Assembly (NCBI GenBank): GCA_945898015.1
Contig: CAMDGM010000016.1
Span: forward strand, 1 to 64,000
Origin: PVC group bacterium
Lineage (GTDB): Bacteria; Verrucomicrobiota; Kiritimatiellia; CAIKKV01
Direction of reading: 5' to 3'
DNA length: 64,000 nt
Shown here: positions 12,305 to 34,390 of the stretch, piece after piece
Position numbering within the stretch: the stretch's first letter is position 1
How the letters are laid out: every line of letters begins with the position of its first letter
Position numbers and translations under genes: made by a program
The notes under the pieces: generated by a model
Seen by the model: the letters and a program-made list of their open reading frames with translations, nothing else
What the model was told of the DNA's origin: nothing
The model's database searches: none

Positions 12305-14134
12305 TCACGGAGTGAACAGATTCGCGAACTCGCCATGTCCGGACCGCAACGCCTCGAAGGGGCCCTCTTCCACCACGGCGCCCTCCCGCAACACAATCAC
12401 GCGCTGGGTCCAGGCCAGCATCTCGGGACGGTGACTCACCACCAGCGCGGCGCGGCCGGCGGCGGCCGTCTGGAGAAGGCGGACCACCTCCCGCTGGGTG
12501 CGGGCATCCAGGGCGCTGGTGGGCTCATCCATGATCAACAGATCGGCATCGCGCAGCATGGCGCGCGCCAGCGCAATCCGCTGCCACTGGCCGGCGCTCG
12601 GCTCCGTGCCCTCGCGCAGCCAGCGCCCCAGCGGCGTGGCGAGTCCCTGCGTCCAATGCGACACAACCTCGTCCAGCCCGGTGCGTTGCGCCACATCGGC
12701 AATGCGTGCATCGCCAGGCGCGCCTCGCGGATCGCCAAGCCAGATATTCTCGGCCACCGTCAGCTGATACCGGCCGAAATCCTGAAATAGCACGCCGATC
12801 CGGCGGCGCCAGGCCGCCGGGTCAAGGTCGCGCAAGTCCACGCCGTCCACCAGGATGCGGCCGGCGGTCGGATCGTACAACCGGCAAAGCAGCTTGACGA
12901 TGGTCGACTTGCCCGCGCCATTGGCACCCACCAGCGCCAGGCGTTCGTCGGGTCGAAAAGCGAAATTGAGGCCGCGCAAGACCGGACGATCCGTGCCCGG
13001 ATAAGTGAACTCGACACGCTCAAACACAATGCCCTCCCGCATCGGGACAGGCACGGCGCGCGGAACGGCAGGGGCGACAACCCGCTCGGGCAGAACCATC
13101 AGCTCATCAAACGCCTGAAGGAACAACGCAGACTGGTACACCTCCACCACCGAGCTTACCAGCAGGCCAAGCTGGCCCTGCCCCCGCTGCACCGCCTGCG
13201 CATACATCACCAGCGCGCCCAGCGTGAGCGCCCCGGCAAACAGCCGGCCTGTCATCCACAGGATCAACGCCGCCACCACAACCAGCAGAACGGCCTGCAT
13301 CGCCAGCTCACGAGAAAGCACATAGCGCCGCCAGACCAGCCGTTCATTGCGGAGACGGGCCCGCACAGCCTCAAAACGCGTACGGCAGAAGGCGCCATGC
13401 CCCTGCAGCCGCAATTCCTTGGCGTAATCCCCATCGGTCAGCAGGTGATGGAAATAGCCGGCCTCGCGTTCCAGCGGGGCAAGATCGCGCCGCCACTCGT
13501 AAAGACGTTGCCCGCGCTGGAGGCGGAAGAAAAGCGCCGGAACACCGGCCAGCGCCAACACCAAGGCCACGAGAGGATGCAGGGTGGCCAACATCAAGAA
13601 TATCCCCAGCAGACCCACCGCGCTCTGGAGGATCAGGAACAGGCTGTCCAGCACGCTGATGGGCCGGGTCATGGCCTGCTCCTGCGCCAGATGCAGGCGA
13701 TTCTGGTCGGCGCTGTTCTCGAAAAAGGCCAAATCCACCGCCAGCATTTTAGCGTGCAGCCGGGCATGCACCAGATCGCTCACCGCCATGGCATGCTGTT
13801 CGCTGATCCACGCCGCCGCAATGCGCAGGCAGGCGTTTGCGCCCAGCGCCGCCGCGCCGACGACAAACCAAACAGCCACCTCCCCGCCCCCGGAATGGAA
13901 CAGCCATGCATACCATCCCCCCTCGGTCACCATGCCGCCCGCGGGAATCGCCTGCACCACCGCCGTCGCCGCGTCGACCGCCCGTTTGAGCGCATACAGC
14001 ATCACCAGCGGCAACAACGCCTGGGCCATGGCCAGCATCGTTTGCGCCAGGGCCAGGCGCGGCGAACTGCTCCACACCAGCCGCAACGCCCGCCCAAGCG
14101 AGGACGCCAGGACACGGATCGGTTCGCGTTTCAT
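12305..14134 (-). CDS. ABC exporter, fused permease-ATPase, RiPP/lasso-transporter-like
   Basis: A 609-residue half-transporter that would work as a homodimer in the inner membrane. Residues ~20-310 hold six predicted membrane helices (for example LAMAQALLPLVMLYALKRAV, AVWFVVGAAALGANACL). The ATPase follows: Walker A GANGAGKST, Q-loop VLFQDFGRY, Walker B ADLLIMDEPTSALD, switch VVSHRPE. The signature is EPSAGQWQR rather than LSGGQ; the GQWQ form recurs in McjD/lasso- and RiPP-type exporters. No C39 peptidase domain is present, so it would not cleave a leader itself. The ATG at 14134 overlaps the kinase stop as ATGA. It is the last gene of the peptide operon and its likely cargo is the 57-residue peptide or its product. 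Confidence 0.8.
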   Translation of the reverse strand: MKREPIRVLASSLGRALRLVWSSSPRLALAQTMLAMAQALLPLVMLYALKRAVDAATAVVQAIPAGGMVTEGGWYAWLFHSGGGEVAVWFVVGAAALGANACLRIAAAWISEQHAMAVSDLVHARLHAKMLAVDLAFFENSADQNRLHLAQEQAMTRPISVLDSLFLILQSAVGLLGIFLMLATLHPLVALVLALAGVPALFFRLQRGQRLYEWRRDLAPLEREAGYFHHLLTDGDYAKELRLQGHGAFCRTRFEAVRARLRNERLVWRRYVLSRELAMQAVLLVVVAALILWMTGRLFAGALTLGALVMYAQAVQRGQGQLGLLVSSVVEVYQSALFLQAFDELMVLPERVVAPAVPRAVPVPMREGIVFERVEFTYPGTDRPVLRGLNFAFRPDERLALVGANGAGKSTIVKLLCRLYDPTAGRILVDGVDLRDLDPAAWRRRIGVLFQDFGRYQLTVAENIWLGDPRGAPGDARIADVAQRTGLDEVVSHWTQGLATPLGRWLREGTEPSAGQWQRIALARAMLRDADLLIMDEPTSALDARTQREVVRLLQTAAAGRAALVVSHRPEMLAWTQRVIVLREGAVVEEGPFEALRSGHGEFANLFTP

Positions 14135-15072
14135 GGGCCCGCTCCCGCCGCCAGGCGGCACACGTCAGCCCGAATTACCTCCACCACCGCCGGCGTAGGT
14201 CGAAAAGAGAGGACCGCACACGGCATCGACTGCAGAAGCCGGCCGACCGTCTCCAGGCAGGGATCCAGGATTTCCGGATCCTGCCAGGGAATAGTCGCCA
14301 CCTGGATCAACCGGTTGAACGCCTCGCGAGGCGTCAGGGGGGTTACCCGGTCCGTCTCGCCATGTTCGATAAAATACACGCGCCGGAGCGGCGCCCACGC
14401 ATTTCGGGCAAACCCGGCGGAACTGGGCCATGGCGAACCGTACACGCGAAAGGCCGCCGCCGGAAGAGCCTCGCCGGACCCGGGCGCCGGCCACTGCCGA
14501 AGAACCGGGCGCTCATCCGTCAACACCGTGGCGCCGGCCGCATCAAACAAACGTGAAAGAGTGCTCTTCCCGGTACCTGAAATCCCCAGGAAAAGGACGC
14601 CGTGCCCATCCACGTCCACAGCCGCGCCGTGAAACACCAGCCCGCCTTGCCGGCACAGCCGCAAGACCAACAACGACAACCCAAGCCCCGTGCCCCAGGC
14701 TCTTTCATAGGAGCCATAAAACTCCGAAAAACGAGCCGGGTTCCAGCTGACCGTGGCACGGTTGAATAACAGAGGGCCGACGATCTGCCAAAGCGCGACC
14801 CCTTCCTGATTGCGCCGGACCACTTCGCATATCCCCTCGCTGACGGTAAAAGACCAAGGCTTGTCAGGGGCTGGCGGTTGCAACGCCAAAGCATGATCCG
14901 GCCCGGAACAGAACACCTCGCACCCGAGATCCGTCACGCCATCACCGGAGCGAAAAGACTGAAAAGGGAGTGGAAAAGCCGGGCTTTCGTTGGGACCGGA
15001 TAACAAAAAACGCACACCCGCGATGGTTAAGCGACTCAACCCTGAGCTGCGTTCACGCTCCGCATTCTTCAA
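14131..15072 (-). CDS. HPr-kinase-like protein of a PqqD-associated peptide system
   Basis: A 313-residue protein. The C-terminal half is an HprK-type P-loop kinase: HGAAVDVDGHG, Walker A GISGTGKST, then VLTDERPVLR (acidic Walker-B-like step) and FRVYGSPWPSS. The N-terminal half has no recognised domain. Related kinases in lasso-peptide loci (paeninodin type) phosphorylate the precursor, and 'HPr-rel' systems pair such kinases with PqqD-like proteins. It lacks the full HPr kinase/phosphorylase context: no HPr is nearby. It starts 3 bases after the peptide gene and overlaps the exporter by 4 bases, so the three are clearly co-translated. Kinase activity on the peptide is inference. Confidence 0.75.
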   Translation of the reverse strand: MKNAERERSSGLSRLTIAGVRFLLSGPNESPAFPLPFQSFRSGDGVTDLGCEVFCSGPDHALALQPPAPDKPWSFTVSEGICEVVRRNQEGVALWQIVGPLLFNRATVSWNPARFSEFYGSYERAWGTGLGLSLLVLRLCRQGGLVFHGAAVDVDGHGVLFLGISGTGKSTLSRLFDAAGATVLTDERPVLRQWPAPGSGEALPAAAFRVYGSPWPSSAGFARNAWAPLRRVYFIEHGETDRVTPLTPREAFNRLIQVATIPWQDPEILDPCLETVGRLLQSMPCAVLSFRPTPAVVEVIRADVCRLAAGAGP

Positions 15073-15075
15073 AGG

Positions 15076-15249
15076 TTACTCGATAACGCTATTACCCAGC
15101 GTACGGGGAGTGGCCGGCGGTTGAGTATTCTCGGCACTCGCGGATGCCGGACTGACATAATTGCCGCCTTGATCCAACGGTTGCTCAGAAACTGTTGGCG
15201 CCTCATAAGACTGAATTTTAGGGCTTTTGCCTGATGTTACTTTGCTCAT
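15076..15249 (-). CDS. Candidate RiPP precursor peptide (57 aa)
   Basis: A short peptide directly between the PqqD-like and kinase genes. The start MSKVTSGK is set by a near-perfect Shine-Dalgarno sequence (GGGAGGTGGG at about 15252-15262). Residues 15-20 read YEAPTV, matching the YxxPxL/V leader motif that lasso-type PqqD/RRE domains bind. A GG follows at 28-29 (LDQGG). The rest is Ser/Thr/Pro/Ala-rich and ends in LGNSVIE, with five serines and three threonines as possible phosphorylation sites. There is no acidic residue 7-9 positions after the GG and no cysteine, so a lasso ring or lanthionine is unlikely. It has its own promoter. Peptide identity is inferred from motif, size and context. 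Confidence 0.65.
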   Translation of the reverse strand: MSKVTSGKSPKIQSYEAPTVSEQPLDQGGNYVSPASASAENTQPPATPRTLGNSVIE

Positions 15250-15287
15250 CTGCCCACCTCCCACGCATCATCATGCGACTATTGATA

Positions 15288-15316
15288 ATACTATCCCGCT
15301 CATGCCGCGAAATCAA
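15288..15316 (-). promoter_or_regulatory. Internal promoter of the precursor peptide gene
   Basis: Reading the minus strand, TTGATT (15316-15311) and TAGTAT (15293-15288) are 17 bases apart. They lie in the 88-base gap between the PqqD-like gene and the peptide start. A small hairpin (CGCAT-GATG-ATGCG) lies between the likely transcription start and the ribosome-binding site. A dedicated promoter would let the peptide be made in excess over its enzymes, as in known RiPP loci. Confidence 0.55.
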
Positions 15317-15337
15317 CACCTAAATATACAAAGACGC

Positions 15338-15607
15338 TTAGGCCTGTTCCTCGACCAACCCTAGGCGCATCAGGTCGTCTATAAAAGCCTGCACATCGCG
15401 CCGGGCGGTCTCCATGGCTACTTGATACTGCTCCACCAGCGCTCCGGCAAGTTCATCCTGTGACTTCGGTTCCACGATCAACTCCCAAAGCCCGGCGCCA
15501 ACGTCATTCAACGTATACACACTGCGCGTGCACCCGTGAACCGGCACCAGCACGTTCACCCCGGCCACGGTCCGAGCCACCACATCTTTTTTACAACAAT
15601 ATTTCAT
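15338..15607 (-). CDS. PqqD-like peptide-recognition protein (RRE)
   Basis: An 89-residue winged-helix-like PqqD-family protein. The pattern KKDVVARTVAGVNVLVP, then YTLNDVGAGLWELI, then ELAGALVEQY and FIDDLMRLGLVEE follows the family from first strand to last helix. PqqD/RRE proteins bind leader peptides and present them to modifying enzymes. The upstream reading frame overlaps the C25 peptidase stop (GTG at 15646, ATG at 15637), so the protein may be up to 13 residues longer; I chose the ATG at 15607, where the family alignment begins. Its neighbours on either side are the peptidase and the candidate precursor. Confidence 0.82.
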   Translation of the reverse strand: MKYCCKKDVVARTVAGVNVLVPVHGCTRSVYTLNDVGAGLWELIVEPKSQDELAGALVEQYQVAMETARRDVQAFIDDLMRLGLVEEQA

Positions 15608-15642
15608 GACCCTTTTGCCCTGCTCACGTGTCGCCATGCCGC

Positions 15643-18600
15643 TCACAGCCCCACATCCCTCACCCGGTAAAGCCGTTGAGTCGAAGCGCCTTCATCCAAA
15701 TCCAACCATAGGAGATAATTTGCGGTGGCCCGGAGCCCTGACGCGCTCAACGTCCAGACAGCCCCTCCGTTGTCCGAATACTCGACCGAGTACAGTCGGT
15801 TCCGATTGGCAGGAAACCCCAACAGCCAAAGCCCGTCATACAAAACCTTCTGCGAAATCGCCATCGCCCTGTTCACCGGGAACGCCCCCTCCACCGGAGT
15901 CATAACGGCCCACGCCTCATACGCCACCGGCCGGGCCTTGGCCTGCGCCTGATACGCAAGATTGTAAACCAACCGCACCACCACCTGTGCCCCCGTCGGC
16001 AGCACACACGGAAGCTCGCGGATCGCCGCCCCGCTGACCGGATCGAGCCCGGTCCGATTGATCAGCCAAGTCGCCTGATCCAACCCCAACGCCCGCACCC
16101 GAACTCCATACACCAGCCCGCCAGTCCGATTTTCCAGGATTAAGTCCTGCGTCACGCGAGCTCCAGCGTTGACCACCCGAGACGTCGCGATAATTGCCAC
16201 GGAACCGTAGGCCCTGCTCAACGCGGTCCCATACGATACTTTATAACCCGTTTCAGGGCGAGACAGGGTCATTGTCACCGTCGCATGGCTGGCGCCCTTC
16301 CACACATACTGGAGCTTCATCGTCCCATCCATCAGCCCCACATTCACCGCATTCGTATTAGAGGATTTAACACTGAAAACACCACTTCCGGACATCAGGT
16401 TGGTTATGACGAAGGCCTGGGAAACACCCTTCGACACCGGACCCTCGCTCAACAGCCGGCTGAAGGCCGGCATTCCCTTCCCTGTCTTGACCTTCATCGC
16501 GGAGAACCAGGGGCTGACGCTGCCATCCGGCATCCGCCGCCGGATCCTGTACCAATAATCTCGACCGGCGATCAGGTTCGTCACGACACACTCCGCCACG
16601 TTCACGATATAGCGCGACTCGTATCCCGGCACCAGCGGCGTGAATCCAATTCCCGACGCCACGCTCAGTTCCCCTTCCGGCGCGCCATCTTCCGCCCATT
16701 TCCATCGGGCCGTAAAACTCTTCGAGCCAATCGCCCGGGGTGGCAGCACCACGAGGGGCGCAGCGCAATGCGCAGTCACGCTCTTATTGGCATTCACTCT
16801 CACGTAAACTGGGTTGTTCGTTCCGGTAAGAGACCCCGTCCACCCTGCAAAGAAATACAGGGGGCGGGGCAACACCGTCAGAACAACCTTGGTTCCTCTG
16901 TCGTAATAGGGCAAGTCAGGCGTCTTGGTCACGACGCCGTTAACGGCCGTCGCCGTCAGCGTGTAATCATCGTCCATTTCGACGGCTTCAACCGTCGCCG
17001 GCGTGACGCCCACGCCTTGGAACGTGATGGTGGCGCCGCCATTAACGTTGTCGCTGTTGTCCTCTGCGGCCGTCAGGGTTACAGACTGATAAACAGGCCA
17101 ATTCACTGTTGAAAAGGACAAGTTGGCCCCCCCACTAACCGTAATGTCCGTATCCCCGGAAGTCCGCGCCACCGCCACCACCGTGTCACCTGTAGGCTGA
17201 GCGCTCAACCGTACGCGAATATTGGTGCTGCCGCCTTCCGGGACTGAAACAGAGGCCCTATCGGTCAAAACGGTAATGACATTCAAGGCAAAACTGGCAA
17301 CCACCTGCTTGTCGGCATCCATGGTGATGACCACCGGATTGGTGCTTCCGGAAACATCCCCGCTCCAGCCCGCAAAATGGCGCCCGGTGTTCGCGGACGC
17401 GATTAGCGTCACCCCCATGCCGTTATCATAAAAAGCCGAATCGGGATCCTTGGCAACCACCCCGGTCACGGCGGTCACGATCAATGAATAGTCGTCATCC
17501 CGTTCAACGGCCTCCACCGCAGCATCGACCCACCCGTCACCATGGCAGGTTATGGAGGCCAGTCCGTTGGAGTTGTCCGCATTGTCCTCGGCTGCCGCCA
17601 GGGTTACTGACTGAAAGGCAGCCCAGTTGGTCGTCGAAAAGGTCAACAGGGCGCCCTCGCTGACGGTGATGTCCGTATCCCCGGACGTTCGCGCCACCGC
17701 CACCACCGTGTCCCCCGTGGGCTGGGCGCTCAACTTGACCTGGAAATTGGTGAGCCCCCCTTCAGGAACCGATATACTGGCATGGTCTACCAACACCGTG
17801 ATCAGGTTCATTGCAAAACCAGCCGTGACGCTCATGTTCTGAGTGACAATCACGCTAACGGGATTATTCGTGCCGGTAGCATCACCGCTCCAACCCGTAA
17901 AATAATAGCCCGCCTCTGGCACGGCCGTGAGTGTGACGGATGCGTTGTTGTCATAATTGGTCGCATCGGGAGTCCGGGTCACCGTGCCGTTAACAGCCGT
18001 CGCCGTCAAGGTGTATGGCCCGTTGTCTTCATTAAACACCAACGCCGGGTCGCCAATGAGGCTGTAACAGTGAAGCCGTTCGGGCGGCATCGCTCCCGCC
18101 ATAAGCTGCAACCCGCGCCGCCAGACATCCCCCATCCGCAACAGCCCCGACACGTTCCCCACAGAATATAGGTTGACCGCAAGATTCTCGCCTTCATCCC
18201 CCAGCATGTAGCCGGTGGCGCCTAATCCCGCCACAAATCCGGCATCGGCCGAGAACAACCCGTATGGAATAAGGCAGGTCGTGGTGGTCAGCGACTGCCA
18301 GCGGTTGGGCCGGCAGCCCATGACCACCAGGATCGTGGCTTTCTTCCAATTATTGCTGGTCACATCGCCGTTGCTCAGAAGCTTGCCGCTACCGCCGCCC
18401 AGGTTTTGCTCGTCTGTATGCCCGAAAAAGTGGAACAGCCCCGCGCCCGCGCTCAACGCCGGAAACAGGCTGCCAATCTTCACCGGGGTCAAATTGCCCG
18501 TGTCATCGATGGGATAATGCTTCACGGTGGTCCGGCCGTCTTTCTCAAGGGGCTCGATCAGGCGGTCCGTGCCGGTGCTGAACGGGTAGGCCTTGCTTCC

Positions 18601-20682
18601 CACGTTGTCCCAATCCGCAGCAACCGAAACCGGCCGTTGCCAGCGCAACCCGTCTTCATAAGCGATCGTCTTCTGCACCACCACGGCCAGATCCTGCGTC
18701 TTCGTGGTCGGCAACCGGCCGATCGCCACCTCCGGAACACCATCCTCGTTCACATCGCCCAGCGCCGCATCGATCGCAACCGTCATGCCCTCGCCGGTGG
18801 AAAACCGCTGCCCGGCAATCAGGGTGGGAATCAGGCAGGCGGTGTAATCGTTGACGGACAACCGTTGCTGCTTGAAATCCAGCGCGCCGGCGCCCGCCAG
18901 CAACACATACCGCAACGGATGCCCCGCCCAATTCGTGACGCCATCCGCGCAAAAGGCCCGAATCGCAAGGGGGTCGACCAATCCGTAACTGTACCGGTTA
19001 TAGAGGGATTCGACATCCACGATCCTGACGGTCAAACCATGCGCCGCGCGATAATCAGCCAGCGGCTGCAGGACCGCGCGAAAATCGCCGCGCCAGGCCT
19101 CCGGGGGAATGAGAATGACATAGTCAGCCGAATTCGTGGGCAACGACCAGTCCACGTCACCCACGCCCCGCACCGCCGGCTGCAACGTTCCCGCCGATTT
19201 GGAAAAGACCTGATACACCTGCCCGCTGCCGCCGCAGGGAAATGCGGCGGTCCACGTGTTCGACGCGCTGTCGTAGGTGATCGTGACCGGCGACACCACG
19301 CACGGATGGTTCGTCACGGTCACGTCCAGCACCGCAACATCGTTGGAGGCGAACCTGGAAACGGCCACGGTATTGCCGGCTCCGCCCGTGCAACGCAATC
19401 CGCCATTCCGCGCGCGATACTGCTTCGGGTACGAAAAGCCATAGGACATGCAGAGAAAACGGGTCGAGTCCGTGGCCGGGACGGGAGGCGCCGTGCCAAT
19501 ATTCACCACGTTCAATGTCGCCGTGCCGCCAGTGATGTTGGTGGATGAAAAGGGATACGTGAAAGACACATACTGTTCACTCGACCAACTCGGAGTTCCG
19601 AGCGGCGTGCCGCCGACCGACACGCGCACCGCATGATCGTCCGTATCCACCTCGTAATACGACAGGAGGTTGACGGTCACCACACCGGCCCAAAGACCAG
19701 TGGCACAATCCGACAGGGTCTCGGTATACGACTTGGAACTGCCGGACAAAATCGGGCCCGCGAAGGCAATATACGGCGCCGGCGCATCGGCCAGCGTGCT
19801 ATAGGATACCCGGGCCAGATAATCCGTGCCCTGATGCGTGATGCGATTCACAAAACAGCCGTTAGTAATCGCCGGAACCGGAGGGGTCATCACCTGGCTC
19901 ACCATGGCAACGCCCGTTTCCCGCGCAACCCAGTAGACGTTCTCAGGAGCAAACCGGGATTCGGCCGGAACCCCGTAAAAAAGAAGGTTGTCGCCATCCG
20001 CGGACCAGGCCACGGGAAGGCCCTGGCAACTCAGGCTCAAATTGGTAGTATTGATGGCGTCGGATACGCCGGACACCTCCCACCCCGAGGCATCCGCGAG
20101 CTCCTGGGCGGATACGCGGTAAACTCCCTCCTCCCGCAAGCTCAGGCGAACACGGTCCGCCGGCACGCTATTGGTCCAAAGGCGGACACGGGCGCCGGAT
20201 CCAATCCAAACCTGGGCCGCCCCCGCCGGAGCAGCCCCCCCCTGACTTGGCGGAACCGCAACAGACTGAATCTGAATGGAAGGCGGTTCCTTTTTCACAG
20301 TGCCCGCCCAGTCCGCCACGTGTTGGTCCGGCACGCCAGGGGATGCAATCAGCAATTCATAACGCACCGGATCTCCAGCCTGCACGAGGGGATCCGCCAA
20401 TTCATAGACGGCGCCTTCCTCGTTTCCTTGGGACCGTACAAAACCAACCGATTCCCACGCGCCACCATTCCGCTGACGCATCACACGGAACGCCTCCACG
20501 CCAAGTTCAACGGTGGTCTGCCAGCGAACCCGCACCAGTCCATCCTCGCTCGAGGCCGAGGCCTCGAACCGGCTCAAGGTGGTGGAGGGCGTATAAAGCA
20601 TCACCCCGGGTGCCGCGCCCGCGCATGCCCCTGCAACAACCAGAAACAGCGCAAACAAAAGCCGTTTGGCGCGTCCTGTCAC
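15643..20682 (-). CDS. Giant secreted C25 (gingipain-fold) cysteine peptidase with surface repeats
   Basis: A 1679-residue exported protein. It has a signal peptide (RLLFALFLVVAGACAGAA), an N-terminal fibronectin-like module (~30-140), and a propeptide-like region. The C25 domain spans about 520-880: DYVILIPPEAW, ALGDVNEDGVPEVAIGRLPT, catalytic His755 in FHFFGHTDEQ and catalytic Cys790 in VVMGCRPNRW. The 35-residue His-Cys spacing is close to that of gingipains. Residues ~890-1305 alternate three InlB-type repeats (YYFTGWSGDATGTNNPV) with two Calx-beta-like modules (SVPEGG...RTSGDTDITVS). A last ~60-residue module ends in RLYRVRDVGL. The GTG start at 20682 uses a GGGAG that overlaps the previous gene's stop, so translation is coupled. 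C25 relatives include PorU, the type IX sortase; here no type IX genes are seen. Confidence 0.85.
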   Translation of the reverse strand: MTGRAKRLLFALFLVVAGACAGAAPGVMLYTPSTTLSRFEASASSEDGLVRVRWQTTVELGVEAFRVMRQRNGGAWESVGFVRSQGNEEGAVYELADPLVQAGDPVRYELLIASPGVPDQHVADWAGTVKKEPPSIQIQSVAVPPSQGGAAPAGAAQVWIGSGARVRLWTNSVPADRVRLSLREEGVYRVSAQELADASGWEVSGVSDAINTTNLSLSCQGLPVAWSADGDNLLFYGVPAESRFAPENVYWVARETGVAMVSQVMTPPVPAITNGCFVNRITHQGTDYLARVSYSTLADAPAPYIAFAGPILSGSSKSYTETLSDCATGLWAGVVTVNLLSYYEVDTDDHAVRVSVGGTPLGTPSWSSEQYVSFTYPFSSTNITGGTATLNVVNIGTAPPVPATDSTRFLCMSYGFSYPKQYRARNGGLRCTGGAGNTVAVSRFASNDVAVLDVTVTNHPCVVSPVTITYDSASNTWTAAFPCGGSGQVYQVFSKSAGTLQPAVRGVGDVDWSLPTNSADYVILIPPEAWRGDFRAVLQPLADYRAAHGLTVRIVDVESLYNRYSYGLVDPLAIRAFCADGVTNWAGHPLRYVLLAGAGALDFKQQRLSVNDYTACLIPTLIAGQRFSTGEGMTVAIDAALGDVNEDGVPEVAIGRLPTTKTQDLAVVVQKTIAYEDGLRWQRPVSVAADWDNVGSKAYPFSTGTDRLIEPLEKDGRTTVKHYPIDDTGNLTPVKIGSLFPALSAGAGLFHFFGHTDEQNLGGGSGKLLSNGDVTSNNWKKATILVVMGCRPNRWQSLTTTTCLIPYGLFSADAGFVAGLGATGYMLGDEGENLAVNLYSVGNVSGLLRMGDVWRRGLQLMAGAMPPERLHCYSLIGDPALVFNEDNGPYTLTATAVNGTVTRTPDATNYDNNASVTLTAVPEAGYYFTGWSGDATGTNNPVSVIVTQNMSVTAGFAMNLITVLVDHASISVPEGGLTNFQVKLSAQPTGDTVVAVARTSGDTDITVSEGALLTFSTTNWAAFQSVTLAAAEDNADNSNGLASITCHGDGWVDAAVEAVERDDDYSLIVTAVTGVVAKDPDSAFYDNGMGVTLIASANTGRHFAGWSGDVSGSTNPVVITMDADKQVVASFALNVITVLTDRASVSVPEGGSTNIRVRLSAQPTGDTVVAVARTSGDTDITVSGGANLSFSTVNWPVYQSVTLTAAEDNSDNVNGGATITFQGVGVTPATVEAVEMDDDYTLTATAVNGVVTKTPDLPYYDRGTKVVLTVLPRPLYFFAGWTGSLTGTNNPVYVRVNANKSVTAHCAAPLVVLPPRAIGSKSFTARWKWAEDGAPEGELSVASGIGFTPLVPGYESRYIVNVAECVVTNLIAGRDYWYRIRRRMPDGSVSPWFSAMKVKTGKGMPAFSRLLSEGPVSKGVSQAFVITNLMSGSGVFSVKSSNTNAVNVGLMDGTMKLQYVWKGASHATVTMTLSRPETGYKVSYGTALSRAYGSVAIIATSRVVNAGARVTQDLILENRTGGLVYGVRVRALGLDQATWLINRTGLDPVSGAAIRELPCVLPTGAQVVVRLVYNLAYQAQAKARPVAYEAWAVMTPVEGAFPVNRAMAISQKVLYDGLWLLGFPANRNRLYSVEYSDNGGAVWTLSASGLRATANYLLWLDLDEGASTQRLYRVRDVGL

Positions 20683-20685
20683 ACG

Positions 20686-23619
20686 CTACTCCCGCATGCC
20701 AATCTTGAAAAACCCGACAGGAAGGGACGGATCCACAGGCACAAAGGTTTCGGTCCGGGCCTGCGTGGCCACAACCGTGGCAATCACGTCCCAGGGACCG
20801 CTCAGCTGCACGGTGCGATACACGTTGTACGTGCGGCCGGGAATGCTGTCCCACTGCAGTTTCACGCCATTCTTGTCCATGCTCACCATGGCGGCGGAAA
20901 AGCTGCCAATGGCCACATTGTAGGCTGTGTGATAAACGCCTTCGTCATCCCGCACCATCAGGCTCACGACATCGGCGGCGGTCAACCCCGGCACCACGAA
21001 CCGGTACGCGTGATTCCCCTCGCCCGTGGCCTCCTGCCGCCCGACTTCCACCCACTGGCCGGCGCGGCGCAGGTACACCACAATGTCGTTCTGCCCCGCT
21101 TCTTCAATCGTCTGGAATTCCACCACCACACCCTCGGCGGTCTCGTACGCGCGGAGGCGCACCTCCGCCGCGTTCGGGGTCGAGTTCAAGTTCAACACAA
21201 CGAACCCGCCGGTGGGATCATTGACGTAATGGATGTAGTAATTGGTGTTTCCGCCGCCAATGTGCAGGGCCGTGTTGTTCTCCAAAATATTCCCGGCTGT
21301 ATCCCGGAAATAGCCGGTCACGCCCGTCCAGACCACGTTGCTGGCAATCGTGCAGCCCTCACCGCTGAGCGTGCCGATATCCAGAATGGAAACTCCGTTG
21401 TTCAGCGCCAGGCTTCCCTGCATCAGGATGTCCATCTTGTCGCACACATTGCCATCGGGACTGGGACTGACCTCAACCTTGTACGTCGAGCCCGACTCGA
21501 AAACCGTGTTGCTGCCGATCAGCAGCTTTCCCACGCCGTCCACACCCGGAGCCACGGTCCCGCCGCTCTTCGCCGTCACCGTGCCGCTAACCGTTCCCGT
21601 GCCCCCCAGCGTTCCCGTGTTGTTCACCGTCACCGCGCCCGACCCCGTGCCCGAGCCACTGGTATTGACCACCAACAGCGTGCCGGCATTGACCGCCGTC
21701 GGGCCGGAATACGTGTTGGCGCTGTTCAGGATAACCGTCCCGCTGCCGTTCTGGGCCACGCCGCCGGTCCCGGAAATGAGGCCGTTGAATTCGACCCCTT
21801 CCGTGACCGTGTCGGTCTGATTGAAGGCCAGCGTGCCATTATCCGTAATGACGCTGTTCACGTTGAGCGAACCTGTGTCGCCACCGTTCCCAAGCTGCAA
21901 CGTTCCCCCTGAAATCGTGGTGGTGCCGCTGTAGGTGCTGGCGCCGGAAAGGGCAAGCACACCCGAACCCGCCTTGACCAAGCTGCCGGTTCCTATGACG
22001 TTATTGGCGATGATCCCCGAATAGTCCACAACACAATTCGTCTGGACCTGAAGGGTCCCGGTACCAGCCCACAGCGTTGGGCCCAGCGCAATGCCACGAT
22101 AGCCGTCAAGCGTGAAACTGGCGGTGCCCATCAGCGTTCCACCATTGAGCACAATCCGACCAGCCGTCGCCGCCGCCGGCGCGGCTCCCAGATTAAGGTC
22201 TGAACTGACCGAGACCACTCCGCTGTTCACGATGGTCCGGCCCGAATAGGCGTTCTCGCCGGAAAGCGTCAATGTGCCGGATCCATCCATCACCACATCC
22301 CCGTGCCCCACCAGATAACTACCGGCGCCATCCGTGCCGTCCCCGTCAATCGCCCCTGAAATCAAAATGTTACCGGCCCCCGCCACATAAAGATTTTCAA
22401 ACCCATTAAGCGGTACGGTTTCTGTGTCCGTATTAATGAAAGTGGAACCGGACAGCGTCAGTGTGGTGCCGGCCTCAGCACTGACAACCGACTTGCCAGA
22501 CGAATTGATGGCGATCTCCAGTCCGCCAGAACACGTGTTGCTGCCCGACATATTGACCAGATAAGAATAGTCCAAGGACAACGGCTTGGGCATCGTGATC
22601 CCACCCGACAGTTCCAACGTTGAAAGATTGTTCACTACCACAGGTGTTGCAGCATAGGTGCCAAAAGCCTTCCCACTTGTAATTTTCACAATGTAGGCAT
22701 AAATCATAGTGCTTCCATTATACGTATTGGTACCGAAAAGCGAAATTGTTCCTTCACCGTCCAACCTTAATCCATATGTCGGCTGCGTATTCATCGCGCT
22801 AATCACGCCGCCGTATGTAAGCGTAACACCACTGACAGCCCAGAAACCAGTATCACCGCCCGACGCTATGATTTTGGTCAATCTTTTGCTGTTGAGCGTA
22901 AATGAGGATGTGGCCTCCAGATATCCGCCGTTCAGTTCAATATTCAAGCCCGCTGTTCCCGGGACCGTTCCCAGATTGCTATCCTTGCTGACGGCAAGAA
23001 AACCCTGCGTGAGCGTGTTTTTCCCGCTATAAGTGTTATCGCGGGTTAGCGTCACCGTTCCCGAGCCATCCTTGATCAACCCACCTGAACCGGAAACAAT
23101 GCCGGAGACCACAATAGGGCCATCGGCCCCGATGGCATAATTTGCTTTGAGCGTCACCGTATTGCCGGCATTGGTGATGTTTCCGCTCAGGGTGAGCGTG
23201 CCGATATAACTTTCGAAAAACTTGCCCTCTGCTGTAAGTGTGAGCGGAATTCCCCATGCATTATTCCCCGTATTTCCAAACGTTCCGTTAAGGGTAATCG
23301 CATTGCCGGACAGATTGAAACCGCTCTCGCTAATGACGACAGTCCCCACGCTCGTGAGCAGATCGTTGTAATTCGTCTGCTGGGTCGTGCCGCTGAAGGT
23401 AAGCCCATCTCCATCGCTGGGCAATCCACCCGTCCAGTTGGCAGCATCGCTCCAATTCGAAGTACTCCCGAGTCCCGTCCACGTGTGATTGGTCTCCGCA
23501 TAGGCAGGCAAGGCCACCGCCAGCATCGCGAGAATCAGGCCCGACAACCACATTTTCGGGAAAGCCATGGCTTCAGTAAAGACGTCTTTCTCTCGCATCG
23601 AGACCACTGTTTTTTTCAT
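20686..23619 (-). CDS. Secreted autotransporter-associated beta-strand repeat protein with shared C-terminal module
   Basis: A protein of about 977 residues with an extended N terminus and signal peptide (KMWLSGLILAMLAVALPAYA). Most of it consists of beta-helix repeats of the autotransporter-associated type (GSGTVTLTRDNTYSG, GSGVLALSGASTYSG, GGTLQLGNGG, GTVILNSANTYSG). There is no C-terminal autotransporter barrel. Instead the last ~160 residues form two sandwich-like modules ending in LQWDSIPGRTYNVY ... GFFKIGMRE, closely similar to the end of the neighbouring 442-residue protein. I take it as a surface or secreted adhesin-like protein. The start is uncertain: ATGs at 23619, 23598 and 23568 are all possible. 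Its stop lies 3 bases before the C25 peptidase start. Confidence 0.75.
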   Translation of the reverse strand: MKKTVVSMREKDVFTEAMAFPKMWLSGLILAMLAVALPAYAETNHTWTGLGSTSNWSDAANWTGGLPSDGDGLTFSGTTQQTNYNDLLTSVGTVVISESGFNLSGNAITLNGTFGNTGNNAWGIPLTLTAEGKFFESYIGTLTLSGNITNAGNTVTLKANYAIGADGPIVVSGIVSGSGGLIKDGSGTVTLTRDNTYSGKNTLTQGFLAVSKDSNLGTVPGTAGLNIELNGGYLEATSSFTLNSKRLTKIIASGGDTGFWAVSGVTLTYGGVISAMNTQPTYGLRLDGEGTISLFGTNTYNGSTMIYAYIVKITSGKAFGTYAATPVVVNNLSTLELSGGITMPKPLSLDYSYLVNMSGSNTCSGGLEIAINSSGKSVVSAEAGTTLTLSGSTFINTDTETVPLNGFENLYVAGAGNILISGAIDGDGTDGAGSYLVGHGDVVMDGSGTLTLSGENAYSGRTIVNSGVVSVSSDLNLGAAPAAATAGRIVLNGGTLMGTASFTLDGYRGIALGPTLWAGTGTLQVQTNCVVDYSGIIANNVIGTGSLVKAGSGVLALSGASTYSGTTTISGGTLQLGNGGDTGSLNVNSVITDNGTLAFNQTDTVTEGVEFNGLISGTGGVAQNGSGTVILNSANTYSGPTAVNAGTLLVVNTSGSGTGSGAVTVNNTGTLGGTGTVSGTVTAKSGGTVAPGVDGVGKLLIGSNTVFESGSTYKVEVSPSPDGNVCDKMDILMQGSLALNNGVSILDIGTLSGEGCTIASNVVWTGVTGYFRDTAGNILENNTALHIGGGNTNYYIHYVNDPTGGFVVLNLNSTPNAAEVRLRAYETAEGVVVEFQTIEEAGQNDIVVYLRRAGQWVEVGRQEATGEGNHAYRFVVPGLTAADVVSLMVRDDEGVYHTAYNVAIGSFSAAMVSMDKNGVKLQWDSIPGRTYNVYRTVQLSGPWDVIATVVATQARTETFVPVDPSLPVGFFKIGMRE

Positions 23620-23860: not shown

Positions 23861-25189
23861 CTATTTCAGCAAAACCCTGAAAAATCCAGACGACGCCTTC
23901 GGATCAGGATAGGCCACAAACACACGGGTCGCGGTGGCGACTGCCACCACCTGGGTCACGGTCTGCCAGGGAGCGCCCAAACGCTCCACCCACTGGACGG
24001 CATACTCCCGGGCCGGAAGACTGTTAAACGACAACGTCGCGCCAGTCGCAGACATATGGATCATCTCCGCGGCAAAGGGCGTGACCGTGACCCCCGGAGC
24101 AGACCACCCTGTCCCCGCTTCGTCCCGGACCGCGAAGTTATAGGTGCCGCCCACCGCCAGATCGGGAACCAAAAACCGGCACGTCAGCCGCGCACAGGCC
24201 GTCACATTCGTCTCACCCGTCCAGACAACCTGGCCGGCGGCATCCAGCACGGACAGCAGCATGACACCCTCGTTCGCCACATCATACGCCACAAATTCCA
24301 CGTAGGTGCCGCCCATCGCCTGATAGGCATGCAAAGCCATGCCCGAACTCGTGGGCGTGCTGTAAACCGTCGACCACCCCTGCGTCACCAGACTGGACGG
24401 CGTGGCGCCACCGGCGATGTCGGTCGTTAGCGGATTATGATCGGTCGCATTGTCAATCGACGCCAAGGCCACCCGCCACTGCTGATTGCTGGTCAACCCC
24501 GTATATGTCTGCAAATAGGACCACTTGACCGCATAGTCAATAACCGTCGTCATGCCAAAGTTGGTGGTGCCCGCTTGATCAATGGTGCGCACATACCCAT
24601 CCGTGGTGCGATACGTCGATCCGCTTATAAGGCCATTGATATCGTTCGTCCCTTTCTTGCCCGCATCTCCATCCACATCGTCCATCCGGGTGCTTTTCCA
24701 ATCGACGCCGATCACCGACCGGACCGACATTTCCAAGCCATGCTTCGTATTGTCGTTCGACTTGCTGTCCCACGTAAACGCGTAATCCGGGTTCCCGTCA
24801 TCCGTGCCGGCCTGGAGTGCCCCCGAGACATAATTACTGCCGATCAGATTGATCAACACGAAATGTGCATTGTGGAAGGTAGTGCCGGGAATCACGGTGT
24901 CAATCTGAACGCGCATCCGAAAAAACAGATAGTCACTATTACGAGCATAATAGGCGCCTGAATTAGTCGTATCGCCGACAAAATCCGACTCGGGATGTGC
25001 CACCCCATCGGTGGGATCATTCAGTGAATTCAATGCGACCCAATTCGTCGGCCAACTGGCATACGTGCCGATGACGTTGTTGGTCGTCGATGCAAACCCC
25101 GTGGATATTCCAAGAAGACCATATACCGCCATGAAAAAGATAACCATTCCATGCCGGTTAAGCGAAATTTTTGTCGATCCATACCGCAT
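23861..25189 (-). CDS. Secreted protein of unknown function with shared C-terminal module
   Basis: A 442-residue exported protein (signal segment MVIFFMAVYGLLGISTGFAS). The N-terminal ~280 residues are a beta-rich domain (RNSDYLFFRMRVQIDTVIPG, NPDYAFTWDSKSND, DYAVKWSYLQTYTG), reminiscent of carbohydrate-binding or surface-display domains, but I do not recognise a family. The last ~160 residues parallel the C-terminus of the 977-residue neighbour: YVEFVAYDV ... CRFLVPDLAVGGTYNFAVRDEAG, then LSFNSLPAREYAVQW ... GFFRVLLK. That suggests a common secretion, anchoring or processing signal. The ATG at 25189 has only a weak ribosome-binding site. A palindrome lies in its promoter spacer. Confidence 0.65.
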   Translation of the reverse strand: MRYGSTKISLNRHGMVIFFMAVYGLLGISTGFASTTNNVIGTYASWPTNWVALNSLNDPTDGVAHPESDFVGDTTNSGAYYARNSDYLFFRMRVQIDTVIPGTTFHNAHFVLINLIGSNYVSGALQAGTDDGNPDYAFTWDSKSNDNTKHGLEMSVRSVIGVDWKSTRMDDVDGDAGKKGTNDINGLISGSTYRTTDGYVRTIDQAGTTNFGMTTVIDYAVKWSYLQTYTGLTSNQQWRVALASIDNATDHNPLTTDIAGGATPSSLVTQGWSTVYSTPTSSGMALHAYQAMGGTYVEFVAYDVANEGVMLLSVLDAAGQVVWTGETNVTACARLTCRFLVPDLAVGGTYNFAVRDEAGTGWSAPGVTVTPFAAEMIHMSATGATLSFNSLPAREYAVQWVERLGAPWQTVTQVVAVATATRVFVAYPDPKASSGFFRVLLK

Positions 25190-25249
25190 AAATTTCTCGG
25201 CTTCTTCCGAACGTGCCCACAAATTAAATCAGGCTCACGCCTCAAACAG

Positions 25250-25316: not shown

Positions 25317-26105
25317 CTATTTTCGAATGACGGGAAAAAACGCCATAGCGCCGTCTTCGGGATCACGTCGCACGCGAATATCGCAATGGTACACCTCTCG
25401 GAGCCGGGCTTCGGTCAGCACCTCTTCCGGAGAACCCTGGGCGACCAACCGGCCATGATCCATGAGCAAAATACAGGGGCAAAAACTGGCGGCCAGGTTC
25501 AAATCGTGGCTCGTGAGCAGCACGGTGACCCCCTGCTCCCGATTCAACCGCTCCACAATCCGCATGATATCCAACCGATGATTGATGTCGAGGTGCGAGG
25601 TCGCTTCGTCCAGCAGGATCAACCTCGGCTCCTGCGCCAACGCCATGGCCACCACCGCGCGCTGCCGCTCCCCGCCGCTCAACTCGGTGATCGACCGATT
25701 CCGCAAATCCGTCACATCCGTCTGGGCCATCGCCCTCTCCACGGCCTCGTGGTCGGCCCGCGAGGCCCCCGCCCACCGACTGATCCGGGCCGTACGCCCC
25801 ATCATGACGAAGGCCTCCACGGAAAAAGGCATCGGCACTTCCATTTCCTGGGGCACCACGCCCACCAGTCCCGCACGTTCTGCCGCCGAAAACGATTCCA
25901 ATTCCCTTCCGAAAAGACGAACCGTGCCCGCACGCGGTGTCAACAAGCCTGTGATGACGCGGAACAGCGTGCTCTTGCCGGCCCCGTTGGGGCCCAGCAG
26001 GGCCGCCATGCCGCCTTCCTCGAGCTCAAAATCAACCCCGTTCAAAACGGTCCGGGTTCCATACCCCGCGGTCACGCCCGACAAACTGATGGCACCCGGT
26101 TTCAT
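25317..26105 (-). CDS. btuD: Cobamide ABC importer ATP-binding protein
   Basis: The 262-residue ATPase powers import of cobamides through BtuC. Walker A is GPNGAGKST, the signature is ELSGGERQR, Walker B is PRLILLDEATSHLD and the switch is LTSHDL. The family is shared with iron-siderophore importers (FecE/FhuC), so the B12 assignment rests on the operon: riboswitch, btuF, cob genes and btuB upstream. The ATG at 26105 overlaps the btuC stop (ATGA). An upstream in-frame start at 26144 would lie deep in btuC and is less likely. It is the last gene of the operon. Confidence 0.87.
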   Translation of the reverse strand: MKPGAISLSGVTAGYGTRTVLNGVDFELEEGGMAALLGPNGAGKSTLFRVITGLLTPRAGTVRLFGRELESFSAAERAGLVGVVPQEMEVPMPFSVEAFVMMGRTARISRWAGASRADHEAVERAMAQTDVTDLRNRSITELSGGERQRAVVAMALAQEPRLILLDEATSHLDINHRLDIMRIVERLNREQGVTVLLTSHDLNLAASFCPCILLMDHGRLVAQGSPEEVLTEARLREVYHCDIRVRRDPEDGAMAFFPVIRK

Positions 26106-27076
26106 CCGATCCACCCGGCCTTCCGCCGCTGCCGGAGTATCCACAGGAAAAACGGGCCACCCACCAGCGCCGTGATCACGCCCACCGGAATTTCACGCGG
26201 CGCCAGCACCGTCCGAGCCAGCGTGTCGCAGGCGGCCAGGAACAAACCGCCGGCCAGGGCCGCCCCCGGCAACAGGCGGCGATGATCCGGCCCGATCAGG
26301 GAACGCACCACGTGGGGCACCACCAGCCCCACGAACCCGATCAGCCCGGCCGTGGCCACGGCCGACGCCGTGATCACCGTGGCCAGCAACAGGCCCGCCG
26401 CCACCGCCGCCTTCGTCCGCACGCCCAGATGGTGGGCCGTGTCGCTCCCCAGCGTCAAGGCGTTCCACTCCGGGGCCAGGGCCATGGCCGCCGCCAGGCC
26501 CGCCAGCACCAGCGCCGAACAGGCGGCCAGCAGCGGACGGGACGGCATCTGGAGATTCCCGAGCATCCACCAGAGCACATTGTGAATCCCCTCAGCCGGC
26601 GCGATGGACAGCATGAACATGAGCAATCCGGAGCACACCGAACTGACGATCACGCCGCTCAACAGAAGGCCATAGATCGACGGCACGCCCTGATCGTCCT
26701 GCGCCAGCCGCACCACCAGCGCCAGCGTCGCGGCGCCCGCCGCAAACGCGGCGAAAGGAACGGTCCACACGCCACCGGCCGCGCCAAACAGAATCGCGGC
26801 CGCGGCGCCCAGCGCCGATCCGCCGCTCACGCCCAGCACATACGGTTCCGCCAGCGGATTCCGCAACAGCGCCTGAAGCACCACCCCCGCGGCCGCCAAG
26901 GCCGCGCCCACGATCAGCCCGGCCCAGACCCGCTCCAACCGGAGGGCCAGCAACGCCCGGCCCGTTTCCGTATGCCAGTCGGGCAATCCAAGCCCGGAAG
27001 AGCCCGCCAGCAGCCCCAGCAACGGCACCACCGGCGTCAAGGCCAGCAGGACAATCCAGAATGTTTTTGCTTTCAT
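26102..27076 (-). CDS. btuC: Cobamide ABC importer permease (FecCD family)
   Basis: A 324-residue inner-membrane protein with about ten hydrophobic helices, including LVVGAALAAAGVVLQALLRN-type and VLGVSGGSALGAAAAILFG segments and GLIGFVGLVVPHVVRSLIG. These are the conserved helix-coupling and pore motifs of the FecCD/BtuC family. BtuC dimerises and docks BtuF on its periplasmic face. FecCD members also carry haem and siderophores; the riboswitch-led operon makes cobamides the best substrate. Spacing to tonB is 20 bases. Confidence 0.88.
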   Translation of the reverse strand: MKAKTFWIVLLALTPVVPLLGLLAGSSGLGLPDWHTETGRALLALRLERVWAGLIVGAALAAAGVVLQALLRNPLAEPYVLGVSGGSALGAAAAILFGAAGGVWTVPFAAFAAGAATLALVVRLAQDDQGVPSIYGLLLSGVIVSSVCSGLLMFMLSIAPAEGIHNVLWWMLGNLQMPSRPLLAACSALVLAGLAAAMALAPEWNALTLGSDTAHHLGVRTKAAVAAGLLLATVITASAVATAGLIGFVGLVVPHVVRSLIGPDHRRLLPGAALAGGLFLAACDTLARTVLAPREIPVGVITALVGGPFFLWILRQRRKAGWIG

Positions 27077-27096
27077 ACCGACCCGACCCTCACACG

Positions 27097-27921
27097 TTAC
27101 GGATCTTTCAGTTGGAAACGAATCGTCAACTCGGCCCGATACGACTCCGGCGGCGCGCCGGAACCCGGCGGCGCAAACCGCGCGCCCTTCACCGCCTTCT
27201 CCGCCGCTGCGTCCAACGCAAAAAAACCGCTCGACCTCAACACGGCAACCTCCACCGGCCTCCCGCGAACATCGACCCGGGTGCCCAGCAAAACAGAGCC
27301 CTCCTCGCCACGGATACGGGAGCCCATCGGGTAACGGGGATGAATCGTGGAAAGCGGCGCGGCCCCGCCCGGAAGCCCGGACGAAAGCGAATCGGCCTTC
27401 CGCTTTCCCGGTTCCAAGGCGACCGCCCCTGACAAACCGTTCGTCACCGCATCCGGCTCCCCTCCCCGGGCATCCCGTCCCGCCATCCCCTCCGTCTTCT
27501 CTATCACGTTCGACGAAGCCTTCGATTCAGGCCCTTGCTCCTTTGCCTCCACCACAGCCGCTATCGGTTCCGGCTCTGCCGCCGGCGCCGGCTTCGGGTC
27601 GGGCACCACCACCGGCTTCACCTCAGGCTCCGGAGCCGGCTCCGGCGGCCGGACCGGGGGCGCCGGGGCAACTACCCGCTCCTCCCGGGGCGGCTCGGCC
27701 GGAGGAGGCACCGGTGCCGGAACAGCGGGCGCACCTTCTCCCCCCACGGGAGAATCGACTTCCAGCCGCCATTCCATGACCACCTCTCCTCCCAATGCCA
27801 CCTCGGGGGCGAGTAACCGGAACGGTAGATCCTTCCAAAACCTGGCGAACAGAACAATCCCCATATGCGCGGCCAGCGCCAGCGCAAAGGCAATCATTCG
27901 ACGTCGCCGGTGCGGATTCAT
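27097..27921 (-). CDS. tonB: TonB energy-transducing protein
   Basis: A 274-residue protein: short cytoplasmic basic stretch (MNPHRRRRM), one membrane helix (IAFALALAAHMGIVLFA), a periplasmic Pro/Ala/Glu/Val-rich spacer, and a C-terminal TonB domain. The domain shows YPMGSRIRGEEGSVLL, VDVRGRPVEVAVLRSSGFFA, LDAAAEKAVKGARFAPP and YRAELTIRFQL, which is a full-length match to the family. It would couple ExbB/ExbD to the receptor next door. No exbBD lies in this operon; a separate exbBD pair is at 56-57 kb. Confidence 0.9.
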   Translation of the reverse strand: MNPHRRRRMIAFALALAAHMGIVLFARFWKDLPFRLLAPEVALGGEVVMEWRLEVDSPVGGEGAPAVPAPVPPPAEPPREERVVAPAPPVRPPEPAPEPEVKPVVVPDPKPAPAAEPEPIAAVVEAKEQGPESKASSNVIEKTEGMAGRDARGGEPDAVTNGLSGAVALEPGKRKADSLSSGLPGGAAPLSTIHPRYPMGSRIRGEEGSVLLGTRVDVRGRPVEVAVLRSSGFFALDAAAEKAVKGARFAPPGSGAPPESYRAELTIRFQLKDP

Positions 27922-27971
27922 GACTCATTCCATTCCATGGGGCTTCATCCCCGATTATGCTTCGGCGTCTT

Positions 27972-29966: not shown

Positions 29967-30006
29967 TGTATACTCCACTTCTACACCCTTGGATTAAAAC
30001 AGCCGG

Positions 30007-34183: not shown

Positions 34184-34202
34184 CCCGGCCAGAGGCCGGC
34201 AC

Positions 34203-34365
34203 TGAGGCGTGTGAACAAAAGCGTCTTCTGGCTTCCGGCTTCAAACCCGGCCCTCTCCTTCCCATCCGCACTCGCGGACAGTGGATGCTGAGGGCCAGTA
34301 GCCGGTTACAGCGGCGCGACCGCGTCCGATTTTCACGGACTTCCGTTTTCCCGTTCACTCGGTTA
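34203..34365 (-). ncRNA. Cobalamin riboswitch (B12 element)
   Basis: The minus strand shows the conserved order of a B12 element: GGGAAAACGGAAGTCCGTGAAAA-type 5' core near 34355-34330, the CGCCGCTGTAACCGG core near 34310-34295, a CCACTGTCCGCGAGTGCGGATGGGAAGG arm near 34283-34258, and the B12 box AAGCCGGAAGCCAGAAGAC near 34241-34223. Binding of cobalamin would lower expression of the nine-gene operon that starts with btuF. A strong GCCGGCC-TCT-GGCCGG hairpin (about 34184-34202) separates it from the Shine-Dalgarno hairpin. Boundaries are approximate. Confidence 0.9.
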
Positions 34366-34390
34366 AAGGGTCAATCAACAGACTAAAATG

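Follow-up and report, generated by a model that had tools for sequence, protein, structure and literature searches.

A secreted C25 peptidase conserved beside a candidate phosphopeptide cassette in Kiritimatiellae

Introduction

The window analysed here, a stretch of 64,000 nucleotides from a PVC group bacterium (contig CAMDGM010000016.1, assembly GCA_945898015.1), carries on its minus strand, at 12305-23619, six genes for a beta-repeat protein, a C25 peptidase, a PqqD-like RiPP recognition element (RRE), a 57-aa peptide, an HprK-like kinase and an ABC exporter. The question that this locus raises is what a secreted C25 peptidase does beside genes that would recognize, phosphorylate and export a short peptide. 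Linear Polyphosphorylated Peptides (LPP), described in Bacillota (Nat Commun 2026, PMC13381572), come from a set consisting of an RRE, an HprK-like kinase, an NTP transferase, an MsbA-like transporter, a SipW-like SpI and a YxxP peptide; the LPP kinase adds several phosphates to one Ser, the set occurs in capsule loci, and LPP was reported as restricted to Bacillota (PMC13381572). The kinases of paeninodin-type lasso pathways modify a C-terminal Ser (PMC9266682). As set out below, the operon probably belongs with the LPP and paeninodin-kinase systems as a phosphopeptide operon of RiPP type, and the C25 peptidase would be its fixed extracytoplasmic partner.

Results

Gene content of the operon

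All six genes were located where the first-pass annotation of this DNA had placed them, and searches with Pfam and NCBIfam bear out the families PATR, Peptidase_C25, PqqD and ABC_tran. The gene for the secreted beta-strand-repeat (PATR) protein (20686-23619, minus strand as are all genes of the operon; Pfam PATR, 1.5e-27) is separated by a 3-base gap, between its end at 20686 and the C25 gene start at 20682, from the gene for a secreted C25 peptidase of 1679 aa (15643-20682; Pfam Peptidase_C25, 165.6 bits, 2.6e-48), which in turn overlaps the gene for the PqqD-like RRE (15338-15646; Pfam PqqD, 60.9 bits) by 4 bases. The gene for the 57-aa precursor peptide (15076-15249) has an ATG start, a GGAGGT ribosome site and a conserved block shared by seven loci, and is followed by the HprK-like peptide kinase (14131-15072; weak HprK/PEPCK and ScmC profile matches and an AlphaFold model). 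The exporter gene (12305-14161; Pfam ABC_tran, 4e-31) may instead start at an internal ATG at 14134, in which case it overlaps the kinase gene by 4 bases. Just upstream of the operon, at 23861-25222 on the same strand, lies the gene for a secreted 453-aa protein without a Pfam family. A promoter had been placed in the 88-base gap of the operon; our scan finds none there, and promoter-like sites in the region are fewer than in shuffled sequences. Elsewhere in the window, a FecCD/ABC/TonB/TonB-dependent-receptor uptake set (25317-29978) and a cobalamin riboswitch (34201-34390) are ordinary operon neighbours.

The peptide, its recognition element, kinase and exporter

The window peptide consists of a leader motif YEAPTV, a GGNYVSPA block and a C-terminal TLGNSVIE. 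The block YxAPxVxxxxLDxGGNYV is common to seven loci, and mismatches in it number 94, 83 and 228 at codon positions 1, 2 and 3, respectively. Because the leader block recurs in seven loci and its third codon positions vary most, this substitution pattern indicates that the peptide gene is real and translated and that the block is under purifying selection. A C-terminal motif of the LGxS[IV]I type, or a close variant, is co-conserved in 5 of the 7 loci (the window, L111, L112, L113 and L115). The window-type peptides have no terminal Ser; the Ser of the motif lies 4 from the end in most of them and is missing in L114. YxxP is present in 45 of 45 peptides, which is not an independent result because the peptide lists were assembled with a YxxP filter.

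In the PDB, the RRE profile matches TbiB1 and TfuB1, both RREs of lasso pathways, and the RRE also matches lasso PqqD models. In the window RRE, N47 and D84 are 37 residues apart, the same spacing as N33 and D70 of LppB, and may be their equivalents, judging from this spacing rather than from an alignment.

The kinase matches profiles (HprK/PEPCK and ScmC) only weakly, and its AlphaFold model (pLDDT 93) has HprK/P and PEPCK as fold neighbours in the PDB. Its conserved residues are H148, K169, D186 and E187, the first three of which are invariant in 30 relatives. Within the His-Lys-Asp-Asp motif, the His, the Lys and the first Asp are kept, and the second Asp is a Glu in the window type. The named relatives of the window-type kinase come from Kiritimatiellae, Lentisphaerae, Verrucomicrobia and PVC-group MAGs. 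Related kinases are also encoded in L101, L107 and L116-L122, where no PqqD, C25 or YxxP peptide was detected nearby; those of L116-L122 are 38-43% identical to the window kinase.

The exporter had been called McjD-like, a label that turns out not to be specific: it is of the general MsbA/P-glycoprotein type, its sequence matches in the PDB are P-gp/MsbA, and NCBIfam MsbA-type models score below their cut-off. No C39 peptidase domain was found in it. An ABC exporter gene likewise follows the kinase gene in L059, L060, L071, L096 and L098.

Linkage of C25 to the cassette across the class

Across 240 genomes of the class, a C25 gene is found no more than 10 kb away from about 40 of the 75 kinase genes. 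C25 counts and genome sizes would lead one to expect 1.05, an excess of about 40-fold; the count of about 40 is approximate and probably low because contig coordinates of two lists, one of them incomplete, were matched by hand, with three more added via a local profile. The first-pass annotation had stated that its proposal would fall if the linkage were not conserved in relatives, and the set of C25, RRE, peptide and kinase genes is conserved in the class. The same was seen when every kinase match in 17 genomes of the order was taken: C25 is on the same stretch in 9 of 12 kinase loci, two others (G012 and G016, the latter genome having no C25 match) are cut by contig ends, and one (G014) is without C25. 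All genomes examined are fragmented MAGs, and many later-fetched loci were selected for being linked, so that fractions among them are not frequencies.

The order C25-PqqD-(radical SAM)-peptide-kinase recurs in more than 30 loci. In many loci the C25 gene overlaps the PqqD gene or all but abuts it, a pairing that spans many families of the class. In rearranged loci, the peptide gene is just upstream of C25 (L111) or just downstream of it with no PqqD there (L143); such peptide genes directly adjoining C25, with no RRE between, are a new observation. Cassettes with no C25 nearby were found in L069, L097, L102, L104, L108 and L110. A C25 domain tree places 34 cassette C25s apart from every unlinked C25 with a support of 98/95 and five other cassette C25s on the unlinked side; those of the window type form one clade (100/100) that covers five families. 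Three giant C25 genes stand in tandem in L179:1-19901 (G127:C70), and in L184, from the same genome, a C25 gene is followed by genes for a SipW-like peptidase, an NTP transferase and an ABC exporter.

Two sub-types of the cassette

The window cassette is a minority sub-type: a radical SAM enzyme is encoded in most of the related cassettes and a SipW-like peptidase in many of them. In the common sub-type, the order is C25, PqqD, radical SAM, peptide and kinase, often accompanied by genes for a SipW-like peptidase (adjoining the kinase gene, and near it in most such loci), for an NTP transferase and for polysaccharide export. The window type (the window, L059/L112, L060/L113, L071/L111, L096 and L098/L114) has neither radical SAM enzyme nor SipW-like peptidase, and an ABC exporter follows its kinase; in L097/L115 the cassette consists of PqqD, peptide and kinase only. 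An NTP transferase gene is not in the window cluster and comes after the ABC gene in L111 and L114. The locus L092 has both a SipW-like peptidase and C25.

The peptides differ accordingly. Cys occurs in all 35 peptides that adjoin a radical SAM gene, for the most part within a GCK-like motif, and the very last residue is Ser in 31 of the 35, while none of the 10 peptides of the window or L092 type, from loci without a radical SAM gene, contains Cys. The Fisher p of 3e-10 for this association is overstated because the window type counts as a single clade and L092 as another, which leaves about two independent events. L068 and L103 encode Cys peptides with no radical SAM gene next to them. That the Cys tracks the radical SAM gene (35/35 versus 0/10) predicts it to be the modified residue. 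These two sub-types, one with radical SAM, usually a SipW-like peptidase and peptides that contain Cys and end in Ser, and the other with neither enzyme but with an ABC exporter, are new.

Relation to known systems

The first-pass annotation knew of no described system with this gene set. This no longer holds for the core, in that RRE, kinase, exporter and YxxP peptide make up the published LPP set (PMC13381572). Like LPP, the operon has a discrete RRE, an HprK-like kinase, an MsbA-like transporter, a short linear precursor with a YxxPx[V] leader and no cyclase, and, as in LPP, an NTP transferase is present in some loci and polysaccharide genes are often near. It differs from LPP in its attached C25 peptidase and in not being from Bacillota; the window type is without the archaeal-type SpI (SipW-like), the window locus is without the NTP transferase, most relatives of the cassette add a radical SAM enzyme, and the window peptide has YxxPxV but not the rest of the LPP motif YxxPxVLxHQxIxFETxxS. 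We also found LPP-like clusters without C25, comprising RRE, kinase and YxxP peptides, in other classes of the phylum (L123:6908-8848 and L126:6975-8276); a SipW-like peptidase and a tandem pair of peptides are encoded in L123, and no SpI was detected in L126. Because an SpI-RRE-kinase/YxxP cluster occurs without C25 in another class of the phylum, the LPP-like core seems to be wider than Bacillota, with C25 seemingly an addition in this class. What is new is that a C25 peptidase with intact His/Cys and a PorU-like fold is tied to this core. Our literature search returned nothing specific on the combination of C25 with a phosphopeptide cassette and no published description of the pairing.

The sister sub-type, with genes for PqqD, a radical SAM enzyme and a ScmC-like kinase, also resembles SynChlorMet (NCBIfam ScmA-F), but nearly all of its loci have one radical SAM gene, not two, and C25 is present. 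A SynChlorMet cassette was rejected in that ScmC, ScmD, ScmE and ScmF equivalog scores are all far under their cut-offs. Anti-phage defence was also discarded, the PADLOC matches reflecting generic ATPase similarity.

Discussion

A candidate phosphopeptide pathway with a C25 partner

The natural reading of the core is that the RRE recognizes the peptide, which is then phosphorylated. In our proposal, the RRE would bind the 57-aa peptide through its YEAPTV leader, the kinase would phosphorylate a Ser near the C-terminus of the peptide, here presumably that of LGNSVIE, and the ABC exporter would carry the peptide out of the cytoplasm, where the exported C25 peptidase may act on or with it by cutting it, by joining it to another molecule or by being governed by it. 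That such a phosphopeptide operon has C25 as its fixed extracytoplasmic partner is the reading that we consider probable. We count for it the C-terminal Ser of the radical SAM-type peptides, as in paeninodin substrates, and the peptide staying by C25 despite reordering. Against it we count the window-type peptide without a terminal Ser, the Glu in place of the second Asp of the kinase, the cassettes free of C25 and the second, smaller group of cassette C25s among the unlinked ones. If the reading holds, the LPP/paeninodin-kinase peptide chemistry extends beyond Bacillota and is coupled to C25, a family absent from the review of RiPP leader proteases that was searched. The cassette thereby gives the C25 peptidases of this class a testable role in a widespread, little-studied pathway that appears to yield a small phosphorylated peptide, the tie to C25 spanning the whole class.

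Possible roles of the C25 peptidase

Processing of the peptide, transpeptidation, regulation and mere neighbourhood each still fit the data. In the first, C25 would take off the leader or trim the peptide after its export, at the outer face of the inner membrane, a role like that of the SipW-like peptidase in LPP. The catalytic domain of the window C25 covers about residues 532-881, and His755 and Cys790 are intact, confirming the catalytic positions that had been named before; both are kept in every cassette C25 with an aligned catalytic region. Since a SipW-like peptidase is missing from window-type loci and the exporter lacks a C39 domain, C25 is the sole peptidase in the operon, which favours processing. 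In the radical SAM sub-type, however, a SipW-like peptidase adjoins the kinase in cassettes that also have C25, so that C25 would need another or a further role there; L092, too, has both peptidases. Processing is a possible role but not a likely one. The earlier suggestion that C25 stands in place of a cyclase and B2 protease is too simple, as C25 also occurs in cassettes with their own SipW-like peptidase.

A second possibility, which we judge rather unlikely, is that C25 is a PorU-like transpeptidase that cuts a C-terminal domain shared by surface proteins and links these proteins with either the modified peptide or a polysaccharide. While searching the PDB by sequence with the window C25 alone gave no match, the fold search with a model of residues 1-900 did, with PorU as the best match, extending over domains beyond the catalytic one, and the gingipains RgpB and Kgp next. 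The PorU-like fold is thus established, and the window C25 shares with PorU and the gingipains the catalytic domain and His/Cys dyad, and with PorU also additional N-terminal domains. In contrast to PorU, it is encoded with an RRE, a kinase and a peptide, and its PorU equivalog score is 91 bits against a cut-off of 420; moreover, the next best matches, the gingipains, are plain proteases. The proposed substrates are also close at hand: the two proteins directly upstream, the PATR protein (domain at 20692-21033) and the 453-aa protein (23864-24208), have a C-terminal domain in common. The domain abuts C25 in L071 and, within a protein resembling the 453-aa one, in L140, and an orthologue of the PATR protein adjoins C25 in L059. 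The view that secreted neighbours are C-terminally tagged therefore stands for these two proteins, within a set of three carriers in this genome, and a genome-wide C-terminal sorting tag is rejected since there are only three. The rarity of the domain, which is not general to the cassettes, argues against transpeptidation, as may the outcome for the T9SS translocon, namely no SprA_N match in 17 genomes of the order in a search in which no positive control was recovered either. Transpeptidation is favoured somewhat by the resemblance to PorU and by the C-terminal domains that the surface proteins share, and polysaccharide export genes follow many cassettes. In a more specific form that we regard as distinctly unlikely, the phosphopeptide, possibly sugar-bearing, would serve a secreted C25 transpeptidase of the PorU kind as its dedicated partner and would be attached to, or exchanged on, a few co-encoded surface proteins; if true, this would be a T9SS-independent anchoring or modification of proteins in Kiritimatiellae. 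In L140:7263-10862, a C25 copy without the catalytic-His region lies directly behind the protein with the shared domain.

Alternatively, C25 may be a mere neighbour that belongs to the same surface/polysaccharide regulon as an independent LPP-like pathway. LPP-like clusters free of C25 exist both in other classes (L123 and L126) and in this class (L102, L104, L108 and L110), and LPP itself is found in capsule loci (PMC13381572). A fairly unlikely account in our view, it is opposed by the overlapping or nearly touching C25 and PqqD genes and by a pairing that outlasts reordering across many families. We consider it improbable that the peptide regulates C25 as an exported inhibitor, activator or assembly factor: the peptide gene adjoins C25 on either side in rearranged loci, but the peptide bears marks of a modified RiPP precursor (the YxxP leader, the Cys tracking radical SAM and the C-terminal Ser) that an inhibitor does not need.

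A lasso cluster with a lost or misplaced cyclase and B2 protease is very improbable and close to refuted: the RRE matches lasso PqqD models, the leader motif also occurs in lasso peptides, kinase and exporter are shared with paeninodin-type loci and the C-terminal Ser of radical SAM-type peptides with kinase-bearing lasso precursors, but the core is not lasso-like, most window-type peptides lacking Asp/Glu at ring positions 7-9 after GG, and neither enzyme is near. On this last point the first-pass annotation was right: no macrolactam cyclase (asparagine-synthetase-like) or B2 protease is among the Pfam-scanned neighbours within ~10 kb, neither is among neighbour families recurring in at least three related loci, and the sole B2 (PF13471) match in the genome is sub-threshold and on another contig. 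Among the genes that do recur near cassettes is one for a conserved protein of ~650 aa (L067:11532-13484, with relatives in ten loci) that matches no Pfam or NCBIfam family and is found with Wza/Wzc-type polysaccharide export genes.
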